Source: a virus. Taken from it: a stretch of 21,427 bases of DNA. Positions 1 to 16,536 of this stretch are shown here, piece by piece. The first letter of the stretch is position 1. Each line of letters begins with the position of its first letter. Under the pieces are notes generated by a model. It was not told the origin of the DNA and searched no databases. It saw only the letters and a program-made list of their open reading frames with translations. The stretch spans positions 1-21,427 of the IMG/VR virus record IMGVR_UViG_3300008110_000489; one strand, written 5' to 3'. The translations under genes and the position numbers were made by a program.

Positions 1-67
1 CCCAATCAAGAATGCCATCTTTAATTCCCCTCCGCTTCCTCCCCTGCAGCAGCAGGTCAACGCAAGG

Positions 68-343
68 ATGGGAATCAAGATCCAGGAAACTACAAGTGAT
101 CAACCACGGCCTAAGCCTGTGGGTGCACTTGGTACTAAACACTTTCGTTACGGTGGACTAACACCGAAACTTACGGAGTCTCAAGTACGTGAGATCAAGA
201 TGATGGTCTCTGATCCAGACATCGTCAGTAAGTTTTCTAGTAAGACGAAAGCATATCAAGCAATCGGTGAAGCATACAGTGTGACAGGCTGTGCCATTGG
301 CAACATCGCTCGCGGTATCGCCTGGTCACACGTAACGGTATAA
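68..343 (+). CDS. Hypothetical protein with C-terminal HTH-like region
   Basis: A 91-residue basic protein of unknown role. From about residue 34 it has the pattern seen in DNA-binding tails of phage homing endonucleases and small regulators: a TESQVREIK helix start, an IGEAYSVTGCAIGNIARG helix-turn-helix-like stretch, and a closing AWSHV. The same ending (KAWSHI) closes the zinc-ribbon protein at 7123-7467, so the two may share a DNA-binding module. The ATG follows AAGG, a weak ribosome-binding site. The frame is open upstream to the window edge, so this could also be the C-terminal part of a longer protein. Function is inferred from pattern only. Confidence 0.6.
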   Translation: MGIKIQETTSDQPRPKPVGALGTKHFRYGGLTPKLTESQVREIKMMVSDPDIVSKFSSKTKAYQAIGEAYSVTGCAIGNIARGIAWSHVTV

Positions 344-368
344 CACTTGTGTTATGCATCCACTCACA

Positions 369-415
369 ACGTGGGTGGTACTACTCACGTCCTGAGTATG
401 ACGTTAAACTGCTCA
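369..415 (+). promoter_or_regulatory. Two leader hairpins before 438 gene, second with conserved loop
   Basis: Two adjacent stem-loops lie in the 94-base gap. The first is ACGTGGGT (369-376) with ACTCACGT (383-390), containing one G-T pair. The second is TGAGTA (393-398) with TGCTCA (410-415) around the 11-base loop TGACGTTAAAC, which recurs exactly in the leader at 3613-3637. ACTCA at 383-387 could instead pair with TGAGT at 393-397, so the two folds compete. There is no T-tract, so this does not look like a terminator. The role is unknown. Confidence 0.5.
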
Positions 416-437
416 CCACTATTACTCAACTCACACG

Positions 438-635
438 ATGAAAGACCTTAACTTCATTGACGAACAACGCAATGCTGATTACCTCGATGCCATGGCAGAT
501 ATTGCACATGAGCAAGAGGAAGCAATGCGTGAATCAGATGCATTCAACTGGGACGGCATCGAAGAAATCGGCCCAGAAGAACGCAATGCATGTGACCATT
601 ACAACGAGAGGTATGTAATCAATGACTACCACTAA
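438..635 (+). CDS. Small acidic hypothetical protein
   Basis: A 65-residue strongly acidic protein with many Asp and Glu residues, predicted helical in its first half (IDEQRNADYLDAMADIAHEQ). It has no signal peptide, membrane segment or recognised domain. Its start has no purine-rich Shine-Dalgarno; instead the leader carries ACTCAACTC, also seen before other starts in this AT-rich block. Small acidic proteins are common in phage early regions, where some act as DNA mimics or host-protein inhibitors, but nothing here proves that. I do not recognise the family. Confidence 0.6.
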   Translation: MKDLNFIDEQRNADYLDAMADIAHEQEEAMRESDAFNWDGIEEIGPEERNACDHYNERYVINDYH

Positions 636-654
636 ACAAATCTGGGACGAAGAC

Positions 655-679
655 CCAGTGATATTAACTATCACACTGG
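655..679 (+). promoter_or_regulatory. Hairpin upstream of the 717 gene
   Basis: CCAGTGATA (655-663) pairs with TATCA-CA-CTGG (669-679), with a two-base bulge and the loop TTAAC. It ends 37 bases before the ATG at 717. It belongs to the series of stem-loops found in most non-overlapping gene junctions of the AT-rich block. Confidence 0.4.
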
Positions 680-716
680 TATCAATCACAATCACACTCA
701 TTGGAGACTTCATCAA

Positions 717-1070
717 ATGTCTACTGACAATTCATTTGCCAAAACAGCAGCAGCTCGTCGTTGGATCGACAGATACAACCTGCACACTCAGTGGGAAGAA
801 CGAGAACCAACCACCATCTGCCTCCACGAATGCGATAGCAGGTACGGTGGACCAGAAGAAGGTGGTTGGTACTATCAGCAAGGATGGCCCGTCAAAACGG
901 TCTGTGTCTTCTCCAAGAAGCAAGCCATCCGTGAAGCAATCAAGCTCGAAGCAGAAGCAGAAGAACAGTTCGGATCCCGCCGAGACAACCTCGGATGGGA
1001 CGCATGGAATGTTACATTCTCCAACGAGTACGCAAAAGCGTACCCAGAGGAACGTCCGTACTACTGCTGA
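717..1070 (+). CDS. Hypothetical cyanophage-type protein
   Basis: A 117-residue protein rich in Trp, Tyr and Glu. The N-terminal half has a tryptophan-rich segment (RRWIDRYNLHTQWEERE), followed by a charged helical stretch (KKQAIREAIKLEAEAEEQF) and a Tyr/Trp-rich tail. The residue mix looks like a folded soluble protein and is better than that of the competing overlapping frame from 622 to 1107, which is mostly Ser/Thr/Lys/Gln. The stop TGA at 1068-1070 shares its A with the ATG of the next gene (TGATG), pointing to translational coupling. I cannot assign a function. Confidence 0.65.
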   Translation: MSTDNSFAKTAAARRWIDRYNLHTQWEEREPTTICLHECDSRYGGPEEGGWYYQQGWPVKTVCVFSKKQAIREAIKLEAEAEEQFGSRRDNLGWDAWNVTFSNEYAKAYPEERPYYC

Positions 1071-1318
1071 TGCCACAGCTCATGCAAGTCGACAATCGTC
1101 CACTTAATCTCACAATCAATCAACGCAATTTATATATGTACTTCCTGAATCACAGGAAGAAACATCCGCACGTACCTTGTTACGTACCGAAAGTATCACT
1201 GCAAAGTACCAGGCTCGAAGACTACATCAGAGCCTTGGAAAAACTAGAGCGTCTCAACGTTATTAAACTAGAGCGCACCAGTGTTAACTACACTGGCTGG
1301 ATCATGCTTGAACCCTAA
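1070..1318 (+). CDS. Hypothetical protein, possible winged-helix fold
   Basis: An 82-residue protein. I chose ATG 1070 because it overlaps the previous stop as TGATG; an in-frame ATG at 995 would intrude 76 bases into the upstream gene. The pattern fits a winged helix: a helix (INQRNLYMYFLNHRKK), a helical segment (TRLEDYIRALEKLERLNVIKLER) and a final beta-like strand (VNYTGWIMLEP). Phage proteins of this shape are often transcription or replication regulators, but here that is inference from secondary-structure reading only. Confidence 0.6.
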   Translation: MPQLMQVDNRPLNLTINQRNLYMYFLNHRKKHPHVPCYVPKVSLQSTRLEDYIRALEKLERLNVIKLERTSVNYTGWIMLEP

Positions 1319-1320
1319 CA

Positions 1321-1430
1321 ACATATAAGTTTTTCTAATATGTACGTAGCATATGCTATTCGCAAATAACGAATACACCAGGGTATTGCCAGATAACTAC
1401 TGGCCTACCCCCCCTGCACCCCCCGCAGGG
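1321..1430 (+). promoter_or_regulatory. Structured intergenic leader with four stem-loops and a palindrome
   Basis: This 172-base gap (1319-1490) carries consecutive foldable elements: ACATAT/ATATGT (1321-1343); a 12-base perfect palindrome TAGCATATGCTA (1347-1358); ATTCG/CGAAT (1358-1374); GGGTA-tt-GCCAG with CTGGC-c-TACCC (1381-1410); and CCCTGC/GCAGGG around a C-rich loop (1412-1430). The palindrome could be an operator. The C-rich hairpins have no T-tract, so they are not classic terminators. This is the longest and most structured gap in the AT-rich block. Confidence 0.45.
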
Positions 1431-1490
1431 AGTACCAGGAAATACATTAATCTCTATTAGATAACACACCATTCATTCCACACATCAACC

Positions 1491-1790
1491 ATGACTACTC
1501 AACTCAACACTCCTCGTAAGTATCCAGAGATTGATTGGACTAAGAATGAGTACCACCAACTCAAACTCATAGTCCAACAACTACAAACAATCATTGACCG
1601 TGAAGACAAACGTCACATGATGGATCAACATCTAACTTGTCATACACACAATGTTATTGAAGAAGCAATCGCAATGCTAGAAGCAGAGATTGATTATGAT
1701 CCAACACCTAATGATCCAGGTGAACCACCTATCACTGCTGATGAAATGCACACTGCTGCATGGCAACAGCACCAAGAACTGCACAAGTAA
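1491..1790 (+). CDS. Hypothetical protein
   Basis: A 99-residue soluble, acidic protein with His-rich patches. A helical segment (QLKLIVQQLQTIIDRE) is followed by a second helix with Glu and Ala repeats (VIEEAIAMLEAEIDYD) and a Pro-rich linker near residues 70-82. No domain is recognised. It sits alone between two structured gaps, so its translation is not coupled to neighbours by overlap, unlike most genes in this block. Confidence 0.6.
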   Translation: MTTQLNTPRKYPEIDWTKNEYHQLKLIVQQLQTIIDREDKRHMMDQHLTCHTHNVIEEAIAMLEAEIDYDPTPNDPGEPPITADEMHTAAWQQHQELHK

Positions 1791-1820
1791 TTAACTACGA
1801 AACATTAAGAGAATCTGTAG

Positions 1821-1869
1821 GTCTACTGGGCACTTGCTCTGCCTGGTAGACTGATCAGGTCTTAGACCT
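1821..1869 (+). promoter_or_regulatory. Two hairpins in the 1791-1901 gap
   Basis: GTCTACTGGGCA (1821-1832) pairs with TGCCTGGTAGAC (1840-1851) over 12 positions with two G-T pairs and a 7-base loop. A second small hairpin, AGGTC-TTA-GACCT, follows at 1857-1869. The next ATG is at 1902. There is no run of T after either stem, so a regulatory or RNA-processing role is more likely than termination. Confidence 0.45.
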
Positions 1870-1901
1870 AACTTCAATTCACTCCGTAAAACACACATCA
1901 A

Positions 1902-2105
1902 ATGTCCGACGAACTACGCATTCCTGATTCACTTGATATGCAACGACTGCAAGCAATGCAGCTTGTTGCCAAGATGAAGGAATCAGCTGACCGACAAGGC
2001 GTTCAATTCATTGGGGGCTTTGTTGCCCCCAATGGAGAAAAGTTTGTAATGACAAACATGGACGAAGATGATCAACGTATGTTGATGCCGGAGGAACTTA
2101 AATGA
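1902..2105 (+). CDS. Small hypothetical protein
   Basis: A 67-residue acidic protein with a helical N-terminal half (MQRLQAMQLVAKMKESADRQ) and a beta-like C-terminal half (FIGGFVAPNGEKFVMTNMDE). It overlaps the next gene by four bases (ATGA at 2102-2105), so the two are probably translated together. The family is not recognised, but short proteins of this kind directly before the 2102-2407 family are usual in phage early operons. Confidence 0.6.
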   Translation: MSDELRIPDSLDMQRLQAMQLVAKMKESADRQGVQFIGGFVAPNGEKFVMTNMDEDDQRMLMPEELK

Positions 2106-2407
2106 CATCAGAATTACATGAAGTAATGATTCAAGAAATCATTGATGACTTCAACTTTGAACGCGTGCATTGTGCAATGACAGCGCTTGACTGGCGCTGG
2201 CAAACAACAGAAGGCAATGGTCTTGCTGTTCCAACAATTCCACGCCTTAAAGCCAATGCACGTATCTTGTTGCGTAAAGCAATCAAAGATAAGTACATTG
2301 CTACTGGCGGATTACATGCTCAGTATCATCCAGCAAATGACACTGAGCGTGAATCTTTTCAACTTCAATTTGTACTCTGCGAAGCAGACAATTGTCCTGA
2401 TGACTGA
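2102..2407 (+). CDS. Conserved phage hypothetical protein
   Basis: A 101-residue protein of a type I recognise as widespread in phages of many hosts but functionally uncharacterised. Its marks are an N-terminal helix with FNFERVHCAMTALDWRW, then VPTIPRLKANARILLRKA, then a TGGLHA motif and a beta-rich end (FQLQFVLCEA). It starts with an ATGA overlap on the previous gene and its end overlaps the next start by 8 bases (2400-2407). This placing in a chain of tiny coupled genes suggests an early or accessory role. Family membership is by memory of the pattern. Confidence 0.65.
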   Translation: MTSELHEVMIQEIIDDFNFERVHCAMTALDWRWQTTEGNGLAVPTIPRLKANARILLRKAIKDKYIATGGLHAQYHPANDTERESFQLQFVLCEADNCPDD

Positions 2408-2747
2408 CCAACACCCGATCACCCCACCGCCTGATCTGCTACATCAATGGGCTACGGAATACCGGGGCAATCCAGGTGAATCCATAGGCGAAGGTGAAAA
2501 GTACATTGCCATCCAGGCCGCCCGTTGGGGTGCCGACGCTGAGCTAGAGGCGTGTTGTGGCTTGCTGCGACAGCTGGGCTTCGACGTGATTAGTGACCTC
2601 CGTGCCGCCCGCCGCCCCAAGTCGCCGAGCTTGAAGGAGTTGGCATTAGCCGCTCTTAAAAGGCAAAAAGTTCGATCAGTCCCTTCGCTGATAGCAACAG
2701 AAGATTGTGACACCATCCGCAAAGCACTGGAGCAACTCGATGACTAA
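2400..2747 (+). CDS. ITPPP-family hypothetical protein (paralogue 1)
   Basis: A 115-residue protein. I chose ATG 2400 because the MTDQ-ITPPP N-terminus matches the paralogue at 8967-9290. The family features are ITPPP near the start, a W-x-x-E region, AARWGADAELEACC, a basic RAARRPKSPSLKELAL segment, and a C-terminal IRKALEQLDD. I know such proteins as multi-copy uncharacterised proteins in picocyanobacteria and their phages. It is GC-richer than its neighbours and shares a long near-identical DNA stretch (about 2600-2640) with 9141-9181, suggesting transfer or recombination from the GC-rich block. The function is unknown. Confidence 0.7.
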   Translation: MTDQHPITPPPDLLHQWATEYRGNPGESIGEGEKYIAIQAARWGADAELEACCGLLRQLGFDVISDLRAARRPKSPSLKELALAALKRQKVRSVPSLIATEDCDTIRKALEQLDD

Positions 2748-2940
2748 AGACAAATCACCTATTAACTTCGACAAAACTATTGCAGGATTTAACATTACAG
2801 AAAATGGTGTTAAATCGTATACCAAGTCATTTCAACTTGGTCCGTTTCAACTAACGCTTAATGCTCGTGACTCTGGTGTCAGGGGATCTATCAGTCTTCC
2901 TGGCACCGGTATCAGCAAAAGGAACGTTAAATTGTTTTAA
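2740..2940 (+). CDS. DUF4236-like small protein
   Basis: A 66-residue beta-rich protein. ATG 2740 overlaps the preceding stop by 8 bases. The C-terminal half reads as alternating strands ending in SISLPGTGISKR, which resembles the core of DUF4236 proteins (a strand-rich domain ending with a similar PGTG motif). DUF4236 has no established function. It is the last gene of the 1902-2940 overlapping set and is followed by a hairpin. Confidence 0.6.
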   Translation: MTKDKSPINFDKTIAGFNITENGVKSYTKSFQLGPFQLTLNARDSGVRGSISLPGTGISKRNVKLF

Positions 2941-2943
2941 TAA

Positions 2944-2975
2944 CTGGGCATCAGCATTTGCTGTATAAGTCCCAG
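2944..2975 (+). promoter_or_regulatory. Hairpin before the 2998 gene
   Basis: The outer stem CTGGG (2944-2948) pairs with CCCAG (2971-2975) and encloses a small inner CAGC/GCTG hairpin. It starts three bases after the stop of the preceding gene. The leader then contains ACTCAACTC directly before the ATG at 2998. There is no T-tract. Confidence 0.4.
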
Positions 2976-2997
2976 CACTCAACCCTATACTCAACTC

Positions 2998-3180
2998 ATG
3001 GAACCTAACTCATCACTAACACTTTTTGATCGCATCAACATTGCTAACTGTGCAGCACAACGTGCGATACAACACGTTACCAATGAAGAAGTGTTTAACG
3101 CTGAGTACCGTACTGCACGTATGTGGAGTAAGTACAAGTGTTACATCACCAAATCCGTTTCATTCGTGGAGACTGACTGA
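2998..3180 (+). CDS. Small hypothetical protein
   Basis: A 60-residue mildly basic protein with a predicted helical N-terminal half (FDRINIANCAAQRAIQHV) and an Arg/Lys-rich second half. It has no recognised motif. The ATG directly follows ACTCAACTC. The stop TGA shares its last base with the next ATG (3178-3182, TGATG), so it heads a three-gene coupled set ending at 3601. Confidence 0.55.
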   Translation: MEPNSSLTLFDRINIANCAAQRAIQHVTNEEVFNAEYRTARMWSKYKCYITKSVSFVETD

Positions 3181-3428
3181 TGGCTGTACTTGCAATCGAA
3201 TCAACCATCATTGATGATGACTATGTCACAGTTGAAGCAGTTGTTGATGGCATGCGTTGCATCTATCAAGCAACTTACTCAGACCCTTCTGAGTATGCTC
3301 CGGCACTTTGTCGAGCAGGCTTCTACATGGGTGACGACACACAAATCCCTGTTGATGAAGACGGCTTCTGCCGTTATCTTGATTCACTCCAGCTTGACTG
3401 GGAACCCATTGACCTAGGTAACGACTGA
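3180..3428 (+). CDS. Small acidic hypothetical protein
   Basis: An 82-residue acidic protein with a beta-rich N-terminal segment (VLAIESTIIDDDYVTVEAVV) and an acidic C-terminal half with two Cys residues. It is joined by TGATG overlaps to both neighbours, which supports both its start and the existence of the short gene that follows. The family is unknown. Confidence 0.6.
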   Translation: MAVLAIESTIIDDDYVTVEAVVDGMRCIYQATYSDPSEYAPALCRAGFYMGDDTQIPVDEDGFCRYLDSLQLDWEPIDLGND

Positions 3429-3601
3429 TGATTGGTTTCTCAATCGAAGTCAAACGCTGGTATATAACAGTGCGTGGTCCCATGGGTAGAGTTTATCTCT
3501 GCACTGGGTTTGCCAAGCGCTTGCCAGTGTTTATCTCACCTCGTCAATCAATGTTATTTGATGAATACATTGAATACAACGACGAGTATGGTGTGAAGTA
3601 A
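3428..3601 (+). CDS. Short basic/aromatic hypothetical protein
   Basis: A 57-residue gene that is easy to miss because of its length. The ATG at 3428 overlaps the preceding TGA (TGATG) and the frame runs to TAA at 3599-3601. The protein begins MIGFSIEVKRWYITVRG, is beta-like and basic at first, and ends acidic and Tyr-rich (DEYIEYNDEYGVK). Coupling to the upstream gene and codon choice like its neighbours support it. No function is recognised. Confidence 0.55.
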   Translation: MIGFSIEVKRWYITVRGPMGRVYLCTGFAKRLPVFISPRQSMLFDEYIEYNDEYGVK

Positions 3602-3612
3602 CACACCCGTCC

Positions 3613-3637
3613 TAGGTCATGACGTTAAACTGACCTA
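3613..3637 (+). promoter_or_regulatory. Leader hairpin with conserved TGACGTTAAAC loop
   Basis: TAGGTCA (3613-3619) pairs perfectly with TGACCTA (3631-3637) around the loop TGACGTTAAAC. The same 11-base loop, with a different but still paired stem, occurs at 393-415. Both copies are preceded by GTCC and followed by ACTCAACTC before the next ATG. The compensating stem changes argue for selection on an RNA (or cruciform) structure. Confidence 0.55.
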
Positions 3638-3668
3638 CACTACGAACTCAACTCTGAACTTACCATGC

Positions 3669-4211
3669 ATGAAACCTAACCCACTTCCACCAATTGAATA
3701 TCTTCAGCAATTGTTTTACTTGGATACAAATTCTCCAAGTGGTTTGCGTTGGCGTAAAGCACCTAGTGCTTGGACCAAAGCAACCTCAATTGCTGGCACC
3801 CAACGAATTAAGGATCATTATTGGCGTGTACGTTGGAAGTATCAAGGTAAAACTGTAGACTACATGGCTCACCGGATTGTGTATGCATTACAACATAACT
3901 GTGATCCTGCAGATAAGTTTGTTGACCACATACACAATGACAAAGATAACAACAAGCCTTTGCGTTTAGCTACTAAACTACAAAACTCTCAAAATCGAAA
4001 CGGTCGCAAGAATACAACAAGCATTTATAAAGGTGTTTGTTTGATTAAAGCAACTGGTCGATGGCGTTCTACCATTCGTATTAATAAGCAATACAAACAC
4101 ATTGGTGTTTACGCAACACAAGAAGAAGCAGCTTTAGCTTATAACGAAGTTGCTTTGCTACACTTTGGTGAGTTTGCTCGCCTTAATCAAATCAATTCAT
4201 CCCAGAACTAA
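3669..4211 (+). CDS. HNH homing endonuclease with AP2 domain
   Basis: A 180-residue HNH-family homing endonuclease, a selfish DNA-cutting enzyme. The central HNH module contains AHRIVYAL (His at about residue 68), VDHIHNDKDNN (residues 85-95) and the Asn-rich TKLQNSQNRNGRKN. The C-terminal 119-172 region is an AP2/ERF-type DNA-binding domain (SIYKGVCLIKATGRWRS ... AALAYNEVALLHFGEFARLN). This HNH_3 plus AP2 order is typical of free-standing phage homing endonucleases. The catalytic residues appear intact. It lies just before the PcfJ-like gene with only two bases between, a likely hint that it homed beside that gene. Confidence 0.9.
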   Translation: MKPNPLPPIEYLQQLFYLDTNSPSGLRWRKAPSAWTKATSIAGTQRIKDHYWRVRWKYQGKTVDYMAHRIVYALQHNCDPADKFVDHIHNDKDNNKPLRLATKLQNSQNRNGRKNTTSIYKGVCLIKATGRWRSTIRINKQYKHIGVYATQEEAALAYNEVALLHFGEFARLNQINSSQN

Positions 4212-4213
4212 TC

Positions 4214-5998
4214 ATGCATTTTGCTCTCCCCTCTAACCTTCAAACAGAACTAATCGCATACGATCCAGTACTTAAGAAACTGGCTCGTGCCGAGAAAACA
4301 GAAACATCTAAAGCTAAGAAAGCTAAGTATCCTCTTGGTTTACCACCACGGTTAGTGCCAACAGAAATCATACGTGACTCACTGTATGACGATGCAATTG
4401 TAAACATCAATGCTAACGCTGCACCAGAACGGTTTCATGAATTCCGTTTGCCTGTAGGTACTATTCCCAATGTGGAGTATGTCACACATGCTGTGATCTA
4501 CCACTGGGAAGGACTATGGGTAGCAGCATGGCTGCCGCCCAAAGGCAAAGAATCTGAATACGTATATGGTTACACAGAGTGTTACAAAGATACTGCAACA
4601 GCACGAAAGATGTTGGCTTACGATGTTCGCAGCGATAACACATTTCTTCAAGAACAAATCGGTCGTAGTTATTACATGATCAAGACCGTTTTAGTTACCA
4701 AGCAAATGATCATGGATGGCAATGATAGCCGTCATTGGTTTAAATGCAATGGCTATGGGATGAAAGCAGCTCATATGGTTCCAGCTATACGTAGATTTGA
4801 AGACGTATTGAAAACATCTATCCCCACATGGGATGATGCAACTGGCGGCTTCTTCCAACGTCTACGGCATGATCACAATCTATTCAACTTATTGTTTGCA
4901 CGCATTGACCCAAGAGTTGTAGATGAGTATTTTGCATTATGCCAAAAGAATTATCGTATGACCCGTGACAACTGGCAACTAAATGTAGATACATTATTTG
5001 CATTAATAGATATAAACACTGCATCCGCTTCAGCTGGATATATGTATATAAATTTGCGTTCAATGAAAGACGCAAGAACTATTCTTGATACTCCTGCATT
5101 ACGCAAATGGATTCAATCACAATGCAATGAAGTTATGCAGATGTACAACGATTCAACTAATCGTTTCCGCAGAAAAGTAATAGCACCACTCAAGCGTATT
5201 TATCAACTAGCAGATATGATCAATACTATTCATAGTATCTGGCCTGACACTCCACTTGATTATTACCAAAACAATATCGAAGTACTAATTGGTACTCGTC
5301 GTTTTTATTCACCTCCATATCATCCAATGGCTAAGGACTGGCTGCGTCAGCATATGCCAATTGCATCAGTGTTTCAGATTCTTTCTAAACATTACACTGA
5401 ACGCATAGAAGAAGAGATGAAAACTAATTCCAAAGATTACCACCGTCGTTGGAACTGGGATGATGACATGGATCATTGGTACTTCAGGTTCAATGAATTG
5501 GATGACACATTTTCCATGCTTACTCGTATCTTTGACAACGGCAAAACAATTACTCCGCCCAAGCGGTGGCGCATCACTGAATTCCATGACCATGTGCAAG
5601 CAGAGTCATGGAAGATTCAGAATCCCAACCACGCACTACCTCAAGATCTATTTCCACAACCTATTAAGATCAACCATGACAATAACAACTGGTCATTCTT
5701 CCAGCCTTTTGATACCCATCAGCTAGCGCAATGGGGTCAAGCCGTACGCAACTGCGTCGGTAATGCAACTAACTACGCCGAAGGTGTACGCAAGAAGCAA
5801 CACTTCATTGTCCTTGGTATGCTGGATGGCAAGCCAACGTTTACCATTCAGCTCAAGGTTAACAATGGTGTCATGTCCGTTGAACAGATCGTTGGCTTTG
5901 CTAACTCCAGGCTCAACGAGACAACACGTGACACGTACACCGAGGTGTTCCGCAAGGCCTTGCATTTCCGCGAGGATCAGCTAAAGTCTGAGAGCTGA
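4214..5998 (+). CDS. PcfJ-like protein
   Basis: A 594-residue protein, the largest in the AT-rich block. Residues about 505-585 resemble the PcfJ-like domain: QWGQAVRNCVGNATNYAEGV with the HxCV-like Cys-Val, then beta strands (HFIVLGMLDGKPTFTIQL) and QIVGFANSRLN. PcfJ proteins occur on conjugative plasmids and in phages; their biochemical role is not settled. The rest is soluble, rich in Trp, Tyr and His, with no membrane segment and no other domain I can name. It starts two bases after the homing endonuclease stop and is followed by a strong hairpin, so it may end a transcription unit. The assignment rests on the C-terminal domain only. Confidence 0.65.
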   Translation: MHFALPSNLQTELIAYDPVLKKLARAEKTETSKAKKAKYPLGLPPRLVPTEIIRDSLYDDAIVNINANAAPERFHEFRLPVGTIPNVEYVTHAVIYHWEGLWVAAWLPPKGKESEYVYGYTECYKDTATARKMLAYDVRSDNTFLQEQIGRSYYMIKTVLVTKQMIMDGNDSRHWFKCNGYGMKAAHMVPAIRRFEDVLKTSIPTWDDATGGFFQRLRHDHNLFNLLFARIDPRVVDEYFALCQKNYRMTRDNWQLNVDTLFALIDINTASASAGYMYINLRSMKDARTILDTPALRKWIQSQCNEVMQMYNDSTNRFRRKVIAPLKRIYQLADMINTIHSIWPDTPLDYYQNNIEVLIGTRRFYSPPYHPMAKDWLRQHMPIASVFQILSKHYTERIEEEMKTNSKDYHRRWNWDDDMDHWYFRFNELDDTFSMLTRIFDNGKTITPPKRWRITEFHDHVQAESWKIQNPNHALPQDLFPQPIKINHDNNNWSFFQPFDTHQLAQWGQAVRNCVGNATNYAEGVRKKQHFIVLGMLDGKPTFTIQLKVNNGVMSVEQIVGFANSRLNETTRDTYTEVFRKALHFREDQLKSES

Positions 5999-6008
5999 AG
6001 CCAGCACG

Positions 6009-6039
6009 GACCTGTTCTATTCTCGTTATAGGACAGGTC
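6009..6039 (+). terminator. Strong hairpin after PcfJ-like gene, possible terminator
   Basis: GACCTGTTCTAT (6009-6020) pairs with ATAGGACAGGTC (6028-6039), 12 positions with one G-T pair and a 7-base loop. The following TCTTTACTT is pyrimidine-rich but not a clean T-tract, so termination would be partial at best. The next ATG lies 10 bases downstream at 6049, so it could instead be a 5' stem that protects or exposes that start. Confidence 0.5.
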
Positions 6040-6048
6040 TCTTTACTT

Positions 6049-6312
6049 ATGGAACCATTTGCTAAACACACAGATCAACCTAATGAACACAGAGACATAA
6101 CACCTACAGAAGAACAACTGCTAACTATGGCATTAGCAAACTTAGGTGAATACATCCATGACAATTCACCACAATACATACTGATCGAAGACGATCCTCG
6201 CAACGAAGAGGACTATGATACATGGAGTTATGGTTGTGAGCCATTACCTCATGACCACACTTGGCAACACACATCAGTTGATGTGAGTGTAAGCCCAAGT
6301 GAGGCCGACTAG
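6049..6312 (+). CDS. Acidic hypothetical protein overlapping a tRNA
   Basis: An 87-residue acidic protein with a helical stretch (TEEQLLTMALANLGEYIH) and an Asp/Glu/His-rich second half. No family is recognised. Its last three codons and its stop (TAG 6310-6312) lie inside the tRNA gene that begins at 6303, so the mature tRNA and this message cannot both be recovered intact from one transcript unless processing follows translation. The start lies just behind a strong hairpin. Confidence 0.55.
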   Translation: MEPFAKHTDQPNEHRDITPTEEQLLTMALANLGEYIHDNSPQYILIEDDPRNEEDYDTWSYGCEPLPHDHTWQHTSVDVSVSPSEAD

Positions 6313-6380
6313 CCCAATAGGAAGTAGGCAAGCGACTTAAAATCGCTACAGTCCCGGTTCGAATCCGGGGTCGGCTACCA
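6303..6380 (+). tRNA. tRNA with anticodon UAA (Leu, UUA codon)
   Basis: The full cloverleaf folds by eye. The acceptor GGCCGAC (6303-6309) pairs with GTCGGCT (6370-6376), with a G-T first pair. The D stem is GCC/GGC. The anticodon stem AGCGA/TCGCT has loop CTTAAAA (6336-6342), giving anticodon UAA. The variable loop is five bases. The T arm is CCGGG-type with TTCGAAT, and the CCA end is encoded (6378-6380). UAA reads UUA leucine. The short variable loop is odd, since bacterial tRNA-Leu normally has a long variable arm. UUA codons are frequent in the surrounding AT-rich genes and absent from the GC-rich thyX. Confidence 0.9.
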
Positions 6381-6403
6381 ACAACACACTTAATTCAAAC
6401 ATC

Positions 6404-6766
6404 ATGTCATTCTTTGCAGCCTTCAAACACATCATCCCTCAATTTCACGCTTACTCAGACGATGACAATCGTTACAACGTAGGTGCTACATGGATTGGTA
6501 CTGATAGTCTTCAGGACTATCACAACATTGAATTCAAGTACGTTCACAACTCAGAGCGGCTTGCGCTCCAGGGTGAACCACAGCCTGATGGCAGCTGGCG
6601 TTACGTTTCACCAGAGGGTAACATCCATGTCATGTCTGCTGACCGTGCTCGCCATTTCATGGAGCAGACTCAGACGCATGCATCCATCATGGTAAGCATG
6701 TTACAAAAGCTACAAGATGCTGGTGCCCTTGATGACATCATCGACACCAGCATCCAACCTACCTAA
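6404..6766 (+). CDS. Hypothetical protein
   Basis: A 120-residue protein. The first two thirds look beta-rich with Trp, Tyr and His (GATWIGTDSLQDYHNIEFKY), and the last third is helical (DRARHFMEQTQTHASIMVSM), as in a small domain with a C-terminal oligomerisation helix. There is no membrane segment or recognised motif. It begins 23 bases after the tRNA CCA end, so it may be released as a separate message when the tRNA is processed. Confidence 0.6.
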   Translation: MSFFAAFKHIIPQFHAYSDDDNRYNVGATWIGTDSLQDYHNIEFKYVHNSERLALQGEPQPDGSWRYVSPEGNIHVMSADRARHFMEQTQTHASIMVSMLQKLQDAGALDDIIDTSIQPT

Positions 6767-6784
6767 ACTATTACCATCACTTAC

Positions 6785-6804
6785 ACCCCTGGGAAACCAG
6801 GGGT
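6785..6804 (+). terminator. GAAA-tetraloop hairpin before 6812 gene
   Basis: ACCCCTGG (6785-6792) and CCAGGGGT (6797-6804) form a perfect 8-base-pair stem closed by a GAAA tetraloop, an unusually stable RNA hairpin. It is followed by ATTTATT and then ATG 6812. The T-rich tail makes it a possible weak intrinsic terminator or a 3'-end stabiliser of the upstream message. Confidence 0.5.
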
Positions 6805-6811
6805 ATTTATT

Positions 6812-7126
6812 ATGAACAACGAAACAATTGATTTAGATCTAGTAGATCAAATCATTCAACACATCCCATCAAATGCATGGGAGATTGTTAAAACAGCAGC
6901 TATTGAATACCTTGTAGATAACATGCCATCTGATGTACTTATTAAGTTAACAAACAAGTTTGATGGATTTGAAGCGGCTGAAATTATATTGCACAATTAT
7001 TATGATGTGCCAATGATGGGCGCAGAATTAATTATAGATCTGATTAAAATCTCAGGCATTGATAACACTATCAATTTATTAGATCGTCTAGAGCTACATC
7101 AAACTGAAACAAATGATGACCTATGA
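6812..7126 (+). CDS. Helical acidic hypothetical protein
   Basis: A 104-residue protein, almost entirely helical and acidic, with repeated Leu/Ile heptad-like spacing (LVDQIIQHI, EIVKTAAIEYLVDNM, AELIIDLIKI, TINLLDRLEL). This resembles a small alpha-helical bundle. No domain is recognised. It ends with an ATGA overlap on the zinc-ribbon gene (7123-7126), so the two are likely translated together, and starts the coupled set 6812-8574 that ends with thyX. Confidence 0.6.
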   Translation: MNNETIDLDLVDQIIQHIPSNAWEIVKTAAIEYLVDNMPSDVLIKLTNKFDGFEAAEIILHNYYDVPMMGAELIIDLIKISGIDNTINLLDRLELHQTETNDDL

Positions 7127-7467
7127 AGTGTCGTCATTGCAACAGCAAGAACACACGTGTTACATGCACTGATCACTTCAACAACGTAACCAAACGTTAT
7201 TGCAGATGCCTTGATTGTAAAACAAAGTTTCGTACTATTGAACAGTATGAAATGCCTAAGCCTGGCCCCCTGCCAGGTACACCAAGGCCAGGTAACATCG
7301 CACGTGGTTCAGCTCATGGTTCATCAGTATTTAAAGATACTGATATACACATGATGCGTTTACTTTACACCCAAGGAAAAACACTTAAATTTATTGCAAG
7401 TAAGTACGGCATCAGTACTTCTTACACATCACGCATTGTCAACCGCAAAGCTTGGTCTCACATTTAA
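7123..7467 (+). CDS. Zinc-ribbon and helix-turn-helix DNA-binding protein
   Basis: A 114-residue probable DNA-binding regulator. The N-terminal zinc ribbon has CxxC pairs at residues 3-6 and 29-32, spaced as in NrdR-type and Ogr/Delta-type ribbons (MKCRHC ... CRCLDCKTKF). A Pro/Gly-rich linker spans about 45-60. The C-terminal part (about 70-114) reads as a helix-turn-helix (LKFIASKYGISTSYTSRIV) ending in KAWSHI, like the end of the protein at 68-343. NrdR itself would carry an ATP-cone domain, which is missing, so this is not NrdR. It lies four genes upstream of thyX in one overlapping set, so control of nucleotide metabolism is conceivable but unproven. Confidence 0.7.
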   Translation: MKCRHCNSKNTRVTCTDHFNNVTKRYCRCLDCKTKFRTIEQYEMPKPGPLPGTPRPGNIARGSAHGSSVFKDTDIHMMRLLYTQGKTLKFIASKYGISTSYTSRIVNRKAWSHI

Positions 7468-7766
7468 TGCCTGACAAACGACAGTATCATTTCAACATTG
7501 GTGACCGTGTTGCTGAACGACCCAAGTCTCATGGGTTGTTTGCAGTACGTGATGGTGCATTAGAGATTGCCAAACGCAATCGCAGTCAACGTTATGGTAC
7601 CGTCGTGGGTTACACCACGCAGGTAAACAAACGTGGATCACGCACCAAGTTTTTAATTATTCAATGGGATCATCTCAAGTCTCCAATGACTCATGCGAGA
7701 CACCGCATATGTCCCATTGACCAGCTTGCTACACTCACAAACAATGTTATTGTGCCAGGGGAATGA
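7467..7766 (+). CDS. Basic hypothetical protein, SH3-like
   Basis: A 99-residue basic, beta-rich protein. I chose ATG 7467 because it overlaps the preceding stop (TAATG). Its opening FNIGDRVAERPK, then RYGTVVGY, then TKFLIIQWDH and HRICPIDQLATL resemble an SH3-like or KOW-like barrel, where GDRV and GTVVGY form the first strands. Such proteins can bind nucleic acid, and the charge fits. The end overlaps the next gene (ATGA). Assignment is by fold pattern only. Confidence 0.6.
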   Translation: MPDKRQYHFNIGDRVAERPKSHGLFAVRDGALEIAKRNRSQRYGTVVGYTTQVNKRGSRTKFLIIQWDHLKSPMTHARHRICPIDQLATLTNNVIVPGE

Positions 7767-7930
7767 ACACTCAACTTATGGACACCAACACTTTCAATGA
7801 AATCATTGCTGCAGCTAAACGTTATCGAAAAACTAAACAAGAAGACGTTGTACGTTTCTTGATTGATGCTGCATACAACCGTGGCTACCAAGCTGGTTGT
7901 CAATCAATTTTAAAAGCTAATGAGCAATGA
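7763..7930 (+). CDS. Short helical hypothetical protein
   Basis: A 55-residue gene below the usual length cut-off. ATG 7763 overlaps the previous stop as ATGA, and its own stop overlaps the thyX start (7927-7930) the same way, so it is exactly bracketed in the coupled set. A second ATG at 7778 directly follows ACTCAACTT, close to the leader motif before 2998, and may be the true start (50 residues). The protein is helical and basic (FNEIIAAAKRYRKTKQEDVV ... GYQAGCQSILKANEQ). The role is unknown. Confidence 0.6.
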   Translation: MNTQLMDTNTFNEIIAAAKRYRKTKQEDVVRFLIDAAYNRGYQAGCQSILKANEQ

Positions 7931-8574
7931 ACGTTAAATTAATTTGGGCTACTCCAGGTGCTGAAAAACTTGTCACATATATGGCAAGGGTATCTGCACC
8001 AAAGAACCAGGACAACATGCAAACTGCTCCTAAGCTGTTGCGTTATTTAATTACGCATCAGCATTGGAGTCCATACGAAATGGCAAACATGTGTGTTGAA
8101 ATCAACACGACACGTTCTATATCTGCACAGATATTACGCCATCGTTCATTTAGTTTCCAGGAGTTCAGTACACGGTATGCCGATGTATCTGAATTAGGTT
8201 CTTGTGTTATGCCACATCTGCGTCGGCAAGATACCAAGAACAGACAGAACTCTATTGATGATCTGGACTCTGAACAGATCAGTGGTTATTACCGGCGCAT
8301 CAGTCAATTGTTTGAAGATGCAGAACATCTTTATCGTGAGATGGTAAGCACAGGCATAGCTAAAGAATGTGCCAGAAATATCCTGCCGTTGTCGACGCCT
8401 ACTAGACTTTATATGCAAGGAACTTTGCGATCATGGATCCATTATTTATTGCTTCGCTGTGACAACGGAACCCAACGAGAACACAGAGAAATTGCAGAAG
8501 CAATCAAACAAATCTTCTGTGAACAATTCCCCATCATTGGAAAAGCCGTATTCCAAGGAGAAGAAACAACCTGA
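7927..8574 (+). CDS. thyX: Flavin-dependent thymidylate synthase ThyX (copy 1)
   Basis: A 215-residue ThyX, which makes dTMP from dUMP using FAD, NADPH and methylene-tetrahydrofolate in the cytoplasm. The signature RHRSFSFQEFSTRY lies at residues 71-84, with Gln where many family members have Asn. The conserved MARVSAP and LRSWIHYLLLR regions are present and the length is normal. This copy is AT-rich and uses UUA leucine codons five times. The start overlaps the preceding gene (ATGA). A second, GC-rich thyX is at 13845-14468; by eye more than half of residues match, with several identical blocks. ThyX is the usual thymidylate synthase of picocyanobacteria and some of their phages. Confidence 0.95.
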   Translation: MNVKLIWATPGAEKLVTYMARVSAPKNQDNMQTAPKLLRYLITHQHWSPYEMANMCVEINTTRSISAQILRHRSFSFQEFSTRYADVSELGSCVMPHLRRQDTKNRQNSIDDLDSEQISGYYRRISQLFEDAEHLYREMVSTGIAKECARNILPLSTPTRLYMQGTLRSWIHYLLLRCDNGTQREHREIAEAIKQIFCEQFPIIGKAVFQGEETT

Positions 8575-8617
8575 TCAATGGACTGAGCAGGGTTACTCTC
8601 GTTTGTTTTTTTAACTC

Positions 8618-8974
8618 ATGACAACTAACAATCACCCGATCACCCCACCGCCGGAGCTGGTGCAGCAGTGGTGGGAGCAAGCCGACCAGTATCAAGACGA
8701 TCCAAAGACTTACTTCGACTATGTAGCTACCGAAGCCGCTCAATGGGGCGCCGACCAGGAGCTTTTGGCTTGTGGCAACTACCTCAAACAGTGCGCTGCA
8801 TGGGAAGAAGAGGATGTGACCGAGTTCTATAACTATCGCCGCCCGAGGCCACTGAGTTTGAAGGAACTGGCCTTGGAAAGTGTAAAACGATTTGAGAAGA
8901 GCGGTGAGTTTTTCTCGGACCAAATGCGTGAACTTGAGTTTATTCGTAAAGCACTGGAGACTATCGATGACTGA
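8618..8974 (+). CDS. ITPPP-family hypothetical protein (paralogue 2)
   Basis: A 118-residue member of the same family as 2400-2747 and 8967-9290: HPITPPPELVQQWWEQ at the start, AAQWGADQELLAC in the middle, a basic RRPRPLSLKELALESV segment and an IRKALETIDD end. It is acidic overall and soluble. It sits where base composition rises from the AT-rich block to the GC-rich block, after a 43-base gap with a T-run, and is coupled to the next paralogue by an 8-base overlap (8967-8974). The ATG follows AACTC. The function is unknown. Confidence 0.7.
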   Translation: MTTNNHPITPPPELVQQWWEQADQYQDDPKTYFDYVATEAAQWGADQELLACGNYLKQCAAWEEEDVTEFYNYRRPRPLSLKELALESVKRFEKSGEFFSDQMRELEFIRKALETIDD

Positions 8975-9290
8975 CCAACACACCATCACCCCACCGCCAA
9001 AGCTGGTGGAATGGCTTCAAGATCTTGGAAACTTAGACGCGATTGCGCTGGCCTACCAAGCAGGCGCCGACCAAGAGTTGGAGGCGTGCTGTGAATATTT
9101 GGTGCGCTGTGCCCAATGGGAGCCTGAGGATGTCGATGAACTCCGCGCCGCCCGCCGCCCCAAGCCGCCGAGCTTGAAGGAGCAGGCGCTGACTGCTTTG
9201 AGCGAAGCAGATCAAGGGCTAAATAAATCTGAATGGCAACAACGCTCCAACACAATCCGCCGCGCACTGGAGGCCCTGCCCAATGATTAG
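8967..9290 (+). CDS. ITPPP-family hypothetical protein (paralogue 3)
   Basis: A 107-residue paralogue with the N-terminus MTDQHTITPPPKLVEW, the GADQELEACCEYLV core, the basic RAARRPKPPSLKEQAL segment and an IRRALEALPND end. ATG 8967 was chosen because it reproduces the start of the 2400 paralogue and overlaps the preceding gene by 8 bases; a longer in-frame start at 8892 would run deep into that gene. The core DNA at about 9141-9181 is almost identical to 2600-2640, evidence of recent duplication or recombination. Confidence 0.7.
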   Translation: MTDQHTITPPPKLVEWLQDLGNLDAIALAYQAGADQELEACCEYLVRCAQWEPEDVDELRAARRPKPPSLKEQALTALSEADQGLNKSEWQQRSNTIRRALEALPND

Positions 9291-9618
9291 CCCCACCCGC
9301 GCCCAGCGCCTCGTCGACGAGTTTGAAGAAGCTGCCACCGACTGGGAGGGCGGGAAGTATAACATCCGCCACGGTATTGCCGGTGTGCTTCGGCATATCG
9401 CGGACACCGATGCTCAATACGGCGACATGGAATCGTTTTACGCCATTCCAACCCGCACCCTTGAGGACCTGGCCGACGCGCTAGAGGCTCCAACCCTACT
9501 GGAACGCGCCATGAAAGGCGATGCCGTTGCCGCTAAGCAGTTTCTGCATGAGGCTGGCTTCACCGACATGCAGGGTCAATGGCTTCCGCAGTATCAACCT
9601 ATCCCCGACGCCCAATGA
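9283..9618 (+). CDS. Hypothetical protein
   Basis: A 111-residue acidic, helical protein with HGIAGVLRHIAD, LEDLADALEAPTLLERA and a Gly/Gln/Pro-rich tail. It begins with SPTRAQRLVDEFEEAATDW, a type of opening I associate with small picocyanobacterial and phage proteins found beside the ITPPP family. It overlaps the genes on both sides (9283-9290 and ATGA at 9615-9618), so it is part of the long coupled train in block 2. No function can be assigned. Confidence 0.6.
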   Translation: MISPTRAQRLVDEFEEAATDWEGGKYNIRHGIAGVLRHIADTDAQYGDMESFYAIPTRTLEDLADALEAPTLLERAMKGDAVAAKQFLHEAGFTDMQGQWLPQYQPIPDAQ

Positions 9619-9818
9619 CTGACCTCTCCCCCGCCGCGCAGGCGGTGCTGGATGCCGCCAACGGTCGCAGCTCCTACGGTCCAGATGACTGCCTAAGTGA
9701 GTCACGCTGGATTGCTGCCGCCGCCCTGCGGGCTGCTGCATCTCAACTGACCAGCGCTAAAGCCTCGGATGCGCTTCGTGCCATCGCTGCCGAGCTGGAG
9801 GGCAGTGACCCTTCCTGA
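9615..9818 (+). CDS. Small helical hypothetical protein
   Basis: A 67-residue Ala-rich helical protein: an N-terminal helix (LSPAAQAVLDAANG), then SRWIAAAALRAAASQLT, then DALRAIAAELEG. Similar Ala-rich proteins beginning with LSPAAQAVLDA occur repeatedly in Synechococcus/Cyanobium genomes and phages, from memory. It is coupled to its upstream neighbour by ATGA. There is no membrane segment despite the Ala content, since Arg, Asp and Glu are interspersed. Confidence 0.55.
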   Translation: MTDLSPAAQAVLDAANGRSSYGPDDCLSESRWIAAAALRAAASQLTSAKASDALRAIAAELEGSDPS

Positions 9819-9894
9819 AGCCCTATGCCTAGCCTGCCTGTACTGGCTGATCTGCGCCGTGCTGATCTGCCTCTGCAAAAAGATCCTGCCATGA
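9805..9894 (+). CDS. Possible 29-residue membrane micropeptide
   Basis: A GTG at 9805 opens a short frame that ends with TGA at 9892-9894, exactly overlapping (ATGA) the best start of the next gene. The product is hydrophobic and Cys/Leu-rich with a single membrane-spanning stretch (CLACLYWLICAVLICLC) and a basic end (KKILP). It fits the overlap pattern of the gene train on both sides (14-base overlap upstream). Very short and without homologue knowledge, so this is a suggestion. Confidence 0.35.
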   Translation: MTLPEALCLACLYWLICAVLICLCKKILP

Positions 9895-10049
9895 GCCCCG
9901 GCTTTTACCGCATTCGACTGACACGCCCCGATGGCACCAACTGGCTTTGGCTGGCCTGGGCCGTGACTGCTACCAATACCCACTGGATGGCGGCCGAGCT
10001 CCATCCTGACTGCCAGGTTGCAGTGCTTGGCTTGGAGGGTGATTGGTGA
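9891..10049 (+). CDS. Small hypothetical protein
   Basis: A 52-residue beta-rich, Trp-rich protein (FYRIRLTRPDGTNWLWLAWA ... LGLEGDW). I chose ATG 9891 over an in-frame ATG at 9825 because the extra N-terminus reads as low-quality sequence and 9891 overlaps the preceding short frame. It ends with a GTGA overlap on the next gene. The function is unknown. Confidence 0.5.
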   Translation: MSPGFYRIRLTRPDGTNWLWLAWAVTATNTHWMAAELHPDCQVAVLGLEGDW

Positions 10050-10240
10050 TTCACTCCGAAGAGGGCGTCTACAGGGGCCAGAACCACCCCTGCTACGGCG
10101 TTCATCCCGTCGACCGCGGACTGGGGCTAGCGTTCCAACCGTGGTGCTTTGACGGCACCACCGTCACCTGGGGCCCGAGCTTCGAGACGCACTCGGAAGC
10201 TCAGGTTCATGCTCGCATTCTTGCTGGACACGATGTTTAA
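10046..10240 (+). CDS. Small hypothetical protein with GTG start
   Basis: A 64-residue protein rich in His, Trp and Gly (VIHSEEGVYRG ... TTVTWGPSFETHSEAQVHARI). The GTG at 10046 gives the four-base GTGA overlap typical of this train; a TTG three bases upstream is the alternative. It contains the strand-rich centre and final helix expected of a small alpha/beta protein. No domain is recognised. Confidence 0.5.
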   Translation: MIHSEEGVYRGQNHPCYGVHPVDRGLGLAFQPWCFDGTTVTWGPSFETHSEAQVHARILAGHDV

Positions 10241-10418
10241 CTGCCACCCCGCCCAGGAACAGAAGAAGGTCGACTTCCTCGAGCACCTGTATCAGAAGTC
10301 TGGTCGCGACGAGCTGCCGAAGGGCCACCCACTGCGCGGGACCTACACCGGTCTGTGGCAGGAGTTCATGCGTGACAACGCTGAGCAGGCCCGTGATCTT
10401 TGGTGTGCGACGCGATGA
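10233..10418 (+). CDS. Small basic hypothetical protein
   Basis: A 61-residue protein (start 10233, 8-base overlap with the previous gene). It is helical and charged: EQKKVDFLEHLYQKSGR, a LPKGHPLRGTYTGLWQEFM centre and an Ala/Arg end. A longer in-frame start at 10149 would overlap the previous gene by nearly 100 bases, so it was rejected. It is coupled to the kinase gene by ATGA, hinting at co-expression with nucleotide metabolism. Confidence 0.5.
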   Translation: MFNCHPAQEQKKVDFLEHLYQKSGRDELPKGHPLRGTYTGLWQEFMRDNAEQARDLWCATR

Positions 10419-10981
10419 ACAACGATTACGACCGTGAGGACTCGCGCCGGATCATCGGCCTCTACAGTCCTGCGCCGCAATCGGGCAAGACGTTTGCTGC
10501 CACCGTACTGGCCCATCAGGGCTTTCAGCCAGTGTCGTTTGCCGAGCCGCTCAAGCGGATGGCGTGCGAGTTTCTGACATCTCTGGGTTACCGCCAGGAC
10601 GAAGCTCTCAGGCTGGTCTGGGTCGACAAGCACAAGGTGATCCCTGATGTCGGCATCACGGTGCGCCAGCTGCTGCAGCGCCTCGGCACCGAATGGGGCC
10701 GCCAGCAGGTGGCTGATGACGTGTGGATCCGCTGCTGGGAAGCGCGGATCAAGGGGCACGATCGCGTGGTCACCGACGACGTGCGGTTCCTGAACGAAGC
10801 CCAGGCGGTCAAGGCTGCCGGCGGTCAGGTGTGGATGATCCGGCGGCCAACCGCTGAGCACAACGGTGAGCACGTTTCTGAAGGTGCTCTGGACGACTGG
10901 GACGAATTCGACGTTGTCATTGATAATGACAGCAGCATTGAAGAATTCCGTCGCAAGATCGACGCAGCACTATGGCCATGA
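10415..10981 (+). CDS. Deoxynucleoside monophosphate kinase
   Basis: A 188-residue P-loop kinase of the phage dNMP kinase type, which would phosphorylate dNMPs (in T4, dTMP, dGMP and hydroxymethyl-dCMP) to diphosphates in the cytoplasm. The Walker A region GLYSPAPQSGKT is at residues 15-26. VSFAEPLKRMACEFL, TVRQLLQRLGTEWGRQ and VVTDDVRFLNEAQAVKAAGG are the usual conserved blocks, and the end FDVVIDNDSSIEEFRRKI is typical. ATG 10415 overlaps the upstream stop (ATGA). With ThyX and dCTP deaminase elsewhere in the window it forms a dTTP-supply set. Substrate range is inferred from the family. Confidence 0.85.
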   Translation: MNNDYDREDSRRIIGLYSPAPQSGKTFAATVLAHQGFQPVSFAEPLKRMACEFLTSLGYRQDEALRLVWVDKHKVIPDVGITVRQLLQRLGTEWGRQQVADDVWIRCWEARIKGHDRVVTDDVRFLNEAQAVKAAGGQVWMIRRPTAEHNGEHVSEGALDDWDEFDVVIDNDSSIEEFRRKIDAALWP

Positions 10982-11310
10982 TGCGGTTTCATGCCGGGCG
11001 CATGATCCTCAACCTGCAGGATCACGTCTGGCATCTCCGCATCAGGCTTGGATCAACACCAGACAAACAGCTCAAAGCCAGCCTGGAGACAGCGAGCGCC
11101 GAAGAGGCGATCTTCAAGGCTGAGCGGATCTACACCGACATGAAACGTCAGCTGAACCGCAAGGCTGACAACAAGCCGCTCTGCTGGCAGTGCATTCACT
11201 GGGAAGCGATGAGCGCACAGTGCGGCTTCGGCTGGCCAGAGGCAAGTCAGACTGGTGGAAGATTTGCGGCCCAGTGCTCGGTCTTCAAGGCATGTCCAAC
11301 CCGGAAGTGA
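10978..11310 (+). CDS. Hypothetical protein with Cys-rich C-terminus
   Basis: A 110-residue basic protein. The first half reads MRFHAGRMILNLQDHVWHLRI with a helical ASAEEAIFKAERIYTDMKRQ. The second half has a Cys/Trp cluster (CWQCIHWEAMSAQCGFGWPE ... FAAQCSVFKAC) that could bind a metal through CxxC and later Cys residues. Start 10978 gives the ATGA overlap with the kinase; 10972 is an alternative two codons earlier. No family is recognised. Confidence 0.6.
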   Translation: MMRFHAGRMILNLQDHVWHLRIRLGSTPDKQLKASLETASAEEAIFKAERIYTDMKRQLNRKADNKPLCWQCIHWEAMSAQCGFGWPEASQTGGRFAAQCSVFKACPTRK

Positions 11311-11465
11311 TCAGTCGACACGAGCGGGACGGTGGCTCCATCGAAACGCTGGAACCCGCCGGTGGTGGCGAGCTGTACTACCGCAGCTGCGCCAATGGCT
11401 ACTGCCGGTACTCGAGCGACCTATGGCAGGCAGAGCTGTACCTCGACCACCTGCTGGCACGCTGA
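11292..11465 (+). CDS. Small hypothetical protein
   Basis: A 57-residue protein starting at 11292 (19-base overlap with the preceding gene). It has an N-terminal charged part (NPEVISRHERDGGSIETLEP), a YYRSCANGYCRYSSD centre with two Cys, and a helical end (LYLDHLLAR). It is the last gene of the plus-strand train before convergent minus-strand genes. The function is unknown. Confidence 0.45.
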   Translation: MSNPEVISRHERDGGSIETLEPAGGGELYYRSCANGYCRYSSDLWQAELYLDHLLAR

Positions 11466-11472
11466 ATAGTTG

Positions 11473-11550
11473 GCCGGTGGCGCCGGCTCACGCGCCCGCA
11501 CGCCTCACCGCTGCCGGCCTGCAGCGGAACGCCCTCTGCCGATTCAGAGG
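11473..11550. terminator. Convergent-gene gap with two hairpins
   Basis: Between the plus-strand train and the minus-strand HNH gene lie GCCGG-tggcg-CCGGC (11473-11487) and CCTCTG-ccgatt-CAGAGG (11533-11550). The location suits a bidirectional terminator, but neither stem is followed by a T-tract on either strand, so this is weak. Otherwise the 150-base gap shows no gene. Confidence 0.3.
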
Positions 11551-11615
11551 ACACTCAGCTTAGGGGCTGGAGTGCTCGGGTGCGACCGTCCGCACCAGTC
11601 GGTACAGTGAGCGAG

Positions 11616-11960: not shown

Positions 11961-12102
11961 CCAGCTCTAGGTCGACGATGTGCTCGTCGTCTGGGACGAA
12001 CTCGGCGATGCGCGAGTAAGTGTTGGCGAGGAAGTCCTCAATCGAGTCCTCGTCGCTATGCACCACGACCTTGGCCGTCACTTCGAGGAGGTAGGTCGCC
12101 AT
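11869..12102 (-). CDS. Small acidic hypothetical protein
   Basis: A 77-residue acidic protein starting MATYLLEVTAKVVVHSDED. The N-terminal half looks like strand-helix-strand (TYLLEVTAKVVVH, SIEDFLANTYSRIAEFV); the last 25 residues are Gly/Pro/Asp-rich and of poor quality because they lie over the HNH gene start. An in-frame longer start at 12216 would cover the integrase-site repeats and reads poorly. Coupled with the HNH gene by a 92-base overlap. Confidence 0.5.
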   Translation of the reverse strand: MATYLLEVTAKVVVHSDEDSIEDFLANTYSRIAEFVPDDEHIVDLELDAFPLPQETGGSPDFGDGADPQEGGKAPVP

Positions 12103-16532: not shown

Positions 16533-16536
16533 CCTT

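Follow-up and report, generated by a model that had tools for sequence, protein, structure and literature searches.

What element is shared by the regions ahead of two unrelated genes in the window, a viral record of 21,427 bases, and what does it do there? The matches of the window to annotated phages are short stretches, all from Synechococcus. Both regions contain TGACGTTAAAC (399-409 and 3620-3630), preceded by GTCC (389-392 and 3609-3612) and enclosed by a stem of 6 base pairs including one U-G in copy 1 (393-398 with 410-415) and of 7 base pairs in copy 2 (3613-3619 with 3631-3637); ACTCAACTC follows at 424 and 3646, and an ATG at 438 and 3669. A preliminary description had located all of these parts correctly and had read them as a plain hairpin under selection for its structure. 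All features lie on the plus strand. Copy 1 stands between open reading frames for a 91-residue protein (68-343), whose stop is 45 nt ahead of it, and an acidic 65-residue protein (438-635), whose ATG is 22 nt past it, both without a Pfam match; copy 2 stands between frames for a 57-residue protein (3428-3601, stop 7 nt ahead) and a 180-residue protein (3669-4211, ATG 31 nt past) with matches to HNH_3 and AP2, both just below the Pfam cut-off. No third copy was found in the window by pattern scan or by a covariance model; the model, whose training set includes window copy 1, gave 6e-11 and 2e-6 for the two copies and 0.59 for the next best. Folded as plain hairpins, the copies resemble shuffled sequences (z about -0.8 and -1.3 to -1.7); therefore the window by itself is no proof of structure, and the case rests on its relatives. 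A second short inverted repeat (GTGGGTGGTACTACTCAC, 371-388) ends directly 5' of copy 1, and in its place two relatives (L035 and L053) carry GGGGTGGTATCACCCC, as seen by eye only. Elsewhere in the window, GC content rises near 9 kb from about 0.43 (1-9000) to 0.61 (9000-21427), and this shift, together with a tRNA gene (6303-6377), a tyrosine integrase (12446-13552) and a reverse-strand tRNA-like stretch near 12280-12325, suggests an integration junction.

The relatives show that the element is larger than a hairpin. GTCC is a structural part of it, and together with the stem and loop it forms an H-type pseudoknot of 27-29 letters, with S1 of 3 base pairs, L1 of one C, S2 of 6-7 base pairs and L3 of NNNAAAC, which corrects its boundaries to 389-415 (copy 1) and 3609-3637 (copy 2). 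In copy 1, GUC (389-391) pairs with GAC (400-402) inside what had been taken for the loop, and the variable stem S2 (UGAGUA, 393-398, with UGCUCA, 410-415) closes over this S1; the C of L1 (392) crosses S2, a single base (L2, 399) is T, A, C or G among the sites of the loop-free scan, and L3 (GUU AAAC) occupies 403-409. Copy 2 has the 7-base-pair form of S2 (UAGGUCA, 3613-3619, with UGACCUA, 3631-3637), with S1 formed by GUC (3609-3611) and GAC (3621-3623), L1 at 3612, L2 at 3620 and L3 (GUU AAAC) at 3624-3630. One base crossing 6-7 base pairs is the classical geometry, which explains the narrow range of stem lengths. In the viral collection, a scan for GTCC, a gap and the 11-mer gave at least 120 stretches, and among the matches listed most were clearly the same element before unrelated genes; scans of viral sequence and genomes together gave hundreds of copies. 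When GTCC was left free in the viral collection, with stem and loop fixed, it still stood 5' in 45 of 46; in the converse scan, which fixed GTCC and the stem and placed no demand on the 11 loop bases, about 128 of the 136 distinct sites showed N-GAC-NNN-AAAC. The two scans thus identify GTCC, GAC, AAAC and the stem as the constrained parts. The loop is constrained in part, as the three bases after GAC vary freely and AAAC and the following U are fixed; these, like the C of L1, are invariant in alignment A1.

Both helices covary. Among sequences selected for the C of L1, AAAC and pairing in S2, all three pairs of S1 were present without being demanded in 228 of 244 distinct 27-mers, compared with 0 of 10 in reversed sequence, and the variants seen were GAC/GTC, ATC/GAT, CTC/GAG, TTC/GAA, AAC/GTT, GTG/CAC, CTG/CAG and CAC/GTG. 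The first of these is the flipped S1 (GAC/GUC) seen in L112, in an ortholog of copy 1 that stands upstream of the ortholog of the window's 65-residue protein. A scan with four S2 pairs left free recovered 66 new sites, with all four paired in 58 and three of four in the other 8. In a named-structure count of 67 distinct copies, 99.5% of cells were paired, falling to 24-40% when the partners were slid, and double changes numbered 100, where shuffles gave 22.5; this set was picked for S1 variants and S2-paired sequences, so its S2 figure is partly due to selection. The element therefore has two crossing helices that both covary, as an H-type pseudoknot should. The G-U pairs in S2 and the orientation of every copy on one strand at 91 of 92 multi-copy loci indicate that it acts as RNA; with the S1 swaps they rule out a role at the DNA level or as a promoter. 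The selection for structure and the cis-acting intergenic role proposed earlier are strongly supported, and nothing points to the mark for phage-encoded RNA processing proposed alongside them. Rfam 15 gave no family match for the copies, even in permissive mode, and no publication describing an RNA element of this kind came up when the literature was searched for the 11-mer. A hammerhead ribozyme is rejected as its identity, the CUGAUGA and GAAA core with three stems being absent, as is an intrinsic terminator, there being no U-tract after either window copy.

The preliminary description had suggested that the element might be shared across an AT-rich module and had looked to cyanophages for relatives; its range proved far wider. 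Carriers include phages of cyanobacteria (Microcystis, Nostoc and several Synechococcus phages), actinobacteria (Mycobacterium phage Labelle, Arthrobacter phage Molivia, Corynebacterium and Cellulosimicrobium phages), Bacillota and alphaproteobacteria, among them Paracoccus, Moorella, Lactobacillus and Enterococcus phages and Staphylococcus phietaviruses, as well as a Vibrio phage group, a microvirus and some bacterial chromosomes. Across 85,000 species genomes, a scan with a tight pattern yielded no more than 81 stretches, many of them from Omnitrophota, Deltaproteobacteria, Clostridia and Saccharibacteria. In the last group some loci resembled tmRNA on visual inspection, but ARAGORN and Rfam detected none there. 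At the loci on bacterial chromosomes (within L276-L352, e.g. L328 at 6576, L346 at 7346, and L293), the knot lies exactly 8 nt past the last Cys codon of a micro-ORF in 38 of 41, the encoded peptide resembling MKRFMxPRxAHCxEGC and its stop codon often lying inside the knot. This arrangement, carried by Omnitrophota, Deltaproteobacteria, Actinobacteria, Acidobacteria, Chloroflexi and others, and followed in several Omnitrophota by an Rrf2-type regulator, resembles a leader whose translation brings the ribosome up against the knot. Tandem knots occur at L340 and probably at L329.

A second, short class of the element links it to a known RNA. Its form, GUC-CGNRAU-GAC-NNNAAACUA, or GUCC-GNRA-UGAC-NNN-AAAC-UA, contains every fixed letter of the long class, to which the window copies belong, except the long S2, and NNN varies likewise; the two classes occur together in three loci, in tandem in L106. 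In 5,426 E. coli genomes, seven had a near match to the short class and none had the long class. The short-class hexaloops CGAAAU, CGCAAU and CGAGAU are letter-identical to those of variants of coremin, an exonuclease-resistant RNA (xrRNA) of plant viruses (GUCCGAAGACGUUAAACUAC), that resist Xrn1 in the context of the beet virus BNYVV (PMC10520033). The coremin loop YGNNAD fits 107 of 112 short-class copies, most of which the scan pattern had pre-selected. By folding energy the short class is followed by structure, as coremin's hp2 demands (mean z -1.1, fading beyond 30 nt), and a strict finder, limited to perfect hairpins no more than 8 nt past short-class copies, gave no excess. The long class has the GUC/GAC stem of hp1, with Watson-Crick exchange, and the AAAC and U of the spacer GUUAAACU(AC), in which mutation of the C and the U abolishes resistance (PMC10520033); the spacer's GUU is present in the window and free in the relatives, and its AC is absent from the long class. 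The window loops C-UGAGUA-U and C-UAGGUCA-U depart from YGAD/YGNNAD in having no G at position 2, with Y, A and D kept, and no clear signal of hp2 follows the long class (mean z -0.2). With U for G in the loop and hp2 missing, the long class thus departs from coremin in two respects, and with the stem, first C, penultimate A, AAAC and U kept, it is to be regarded as a coremin-like variant and not as canonical coremin. Judged by their letters, the window copies are a putative coremin-like pseudoknot variant and the short class carries the coremin motif itself, so the earlier statement that no family was known has to be withdrawn, even though the window variant departs in loop and hp2. The coremin paper mentions neither phages nor bacteria (PMC10520033), and no earlier report of the element in phages was found in a literature search that left bioRxiv preprints and most subscription papers outside its scope.

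Since phage knot and coremin have this core in common, phages probably use coremin's trick to protect parts of their messages. We propose, with somewhat better than even confidence, that each copy is a cis-acting H-type pseudoknot and a coremin-class xrRNA protecting mRNA segments, mainly against decay of the RNase J type. The knot would sit between two cistrons of a polycistronic mRNA, typically just outside the footprint of the ribosome at the upstream stop; a 5'-3' exonuclease such as host RNase J would degrade the RNA, entering at an endonuclease cut or following the last ribosome, until it met the knot and halted, and the downstream segment would survive. We infer that the long-stem variant of the window acts like coremin, that RNase J is its natural opponent and that the segment protected is the downstream one. 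The placement of the copies is consistent with such a role on translated RNA. The knot begins 6 nt after the stop codon in 105 copies, 7 nt in 42 and less than 6 nt in 7, and most often ends 20-29 nt before the next start codon, and the gap between a ribosome that terminates and one that initiates is just large enough for it, so that it can stay folded while the RNA is translated. Readthrough or frameshifting at the stop is rejected, as copies follow all three stop codons and their distances from the stop spread past the peak at 6 nt; nor was a slippery site seen. In Bacillota phages, the knot lies just upstream of scaffold and capsid genes. A near-full-length RNase J match was found in 23 of 30 host or carrier genomes; some carriers (Omnitrophota, Bacteroidota MAGs) appear to have no RNase J, which rules it out as a strict requirement of the host. 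Copies also lie near replication genes of small Acinetobacter plasmids (L525, 1501-1526; L524, 1501-1528), a host group in which RNase J is unexpected; these copies, like those of the Vibrio phage group and the possible ones in seven E. coli genomes, speak against the proposal.

The direction of protection is the strongest doubt about this proposal, and 5' and 3' roles may both occur. The same pseudoknot might instead stop 3'-5' exonucleases (PNPase, RNase R) and guard the 3' end of the upstream cistron as REP and intercistronic hairpins do, a reading that we consider unlikely on balance. The spacing is locked to the upstream stop, and an upstream gene in the sense orientation is present for 281 copies, with 18 doubtful. 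RNAs of other kinds start right past the knot: a tRNA begins 1-6 nt after it at nine loci in a first set and at 13 in a later one, with Synechococcus phage S-CRM01 among the carriers; for long-class copies the count is 13 of 489, compared with 13 of 12,211 control stops. A hammerhead and the DUF2800 RNA also begin just past the knot at loci described below. The next gene is convergent at L314 and L341, and U-tracts just after the knot are found at 10% of long-class copies compared with 2.9% of control stops. A 3'-end role for the upstream RNA accordingly fits the tRNAs, the hammerhead and the convergent genes at least as well. Against it, the known activity of the same core opposes 5'-3' enzymes, the short class lies just 3' of tRNA ends in 6 of 110 copies and of terminator-like hairpins in 36 of 110, where an RNA would start, and simple stable hairpins would suffice for such a block, with no need for the fixed C, AAAC and U. 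A test of gene-cluster recurrence was symmetric, favouring neither the upstream nor the downstream partner.

Several of these loci deserve separate mention. At L263 (2594-2691), a type III hammerhead (Hammerhead_3, 45.9 bits against a gathering threshold of 48.5) starts about 13 nt and would cleave about 20 nt after the knot; of the other hammerheads seen by eye, that at L140 is weak (18 bits, E 0.13) and that at L171 was unconfirmed, leaving L263 as the only convincing one. In Clostridia phage regions, the Rfam DUF2800 RNA (RF02960) abuts the 3' side of the knot with no gap (L296, 2824-3008; L279, 1-128). At L345 in Clostridia (about 1552, reverse strand), a copy lies a few bases past a promoter-like TTGACA/TAAAAT and directly 5' of a terminator-like hairpin, so that the transcript may consist of hardly anything besides the knot.

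The U-tracts after some copies also suit an element acting on RNA polymerase as a pause, a terminator or a put-like antiterminator, and nascent-RNA elements of this size exist. We regard this as very improbable, because most copies have no U-tract, terminators follow the long class no more often than control stops (2.9% vs 4.7%) and the 6-nt stop-codon rule indicates ribosomes, not polymerase. The ribosome could itself be the target: the knot might keep post-termination or scanning ribosomes from entering the next cistron, uncoupling the two, or stall elongating ones. In vitro, coremin makes scanning ribosomes about fivefold slower (PMC10520033), and both the fit between the footprints and the fixed 8 nt of the chromosomal knots agree with a barrier; scanning by 40S subunits has no direct bacterial counterpart, however, and a barrier is unneeded before tRNAs, after tRNAs and at convergent gene ends, and we judge it quite unlikely. 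That a few letters of the loop are very highly conserved would be in keeping with a small ligand-binding riboswitch or an operator for a shared protein. PreQ1-I is an H-type aptamer of similar size. A single locus, however, can have as many as 8 copies of the knot, and copies stand ahead of unrelated genes and tRNAs and at gene ends, with no common pathway, and are positioned by the upstream stop codon, not by a ribosome-binding site, so that we give this reading hardly any weight.

Returning to protection by an xrRNA, we would extend it, with a little less than even confidence, to a broader picture, in which phages and some bacteria carry an xrRNA class of their own across phyla with RNase J as its natural opponent, the long stem shows a pseudoknot that coremin uses in reduced form, and one small fold, by descent or convergence, is set against unrelated exonucleases both by bacterial DNA phages and by RNA viruses of eukaryotes. 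If true, this would show phages setting mRNA stability segment by segment in long operons where the host has RNase J, scaffold and capsid genes being an example, and it would provide a 27-nt part for stabilising RNA in such bacteria.

Among known systems, coremin is the closest. Phage knot and coremin have in common the GUC/GAC stem with exchangeable pairs, the first loop C, the penultimate loop A, the spacer NNNAAACU and an intergenic or 3'UTR position, and the fixed C4, A10, C21 and U22 of the phage knot align with the loop Y and A and the spacer C and U of coremin. They differ in their carriers, DNA phages and bacteria as opposed to eukaryotic RNA viruses, and the window class has a loop of 8-9 nt with U, not G, at position 2, which base-pairs with what follows the spacer (S2), where coremin has a separate hp2. 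The H-type pseudoknots of T4 gene 32 and of the retroviral type, with a one-base L1 over an S2 of 6-7 base pairs, an A-rich L3 and a distance of 6-7 nt from the ribosomal codon, are alike in geometry and codon spacing; they have no letters in common with the phage knot, which follows all three stop codons. REP and intercistronic stabilising hairpins also follow stop codons in polycistronic RNA, but they are plain, long and without fixed loop letters. For coremin itself, the authors suspected a contact between loop and spacer and called the fold unsolved (PMC10520033), and the hundreds of covarying phage and bacterial sequences offer a concrete pseudoknot model for it. The flaviviral and the luteo/tombusviral xrRNA families, named in PMC10520033, are far larger and unrelated in sequence and topology, and resemble the phage knot in the presumed mechanical block of an exonuclease by a compact fold. 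Flaviviral xrRNA2 stops Bacillus subtilis RNase J1 in vitro, an enzyme that the authors of that 2018 study described as one that xrRNAs 'never naturally encounter' (PMC5760640); the phage copies are candidates for natural bacterial xrRNAs that face RNase J.
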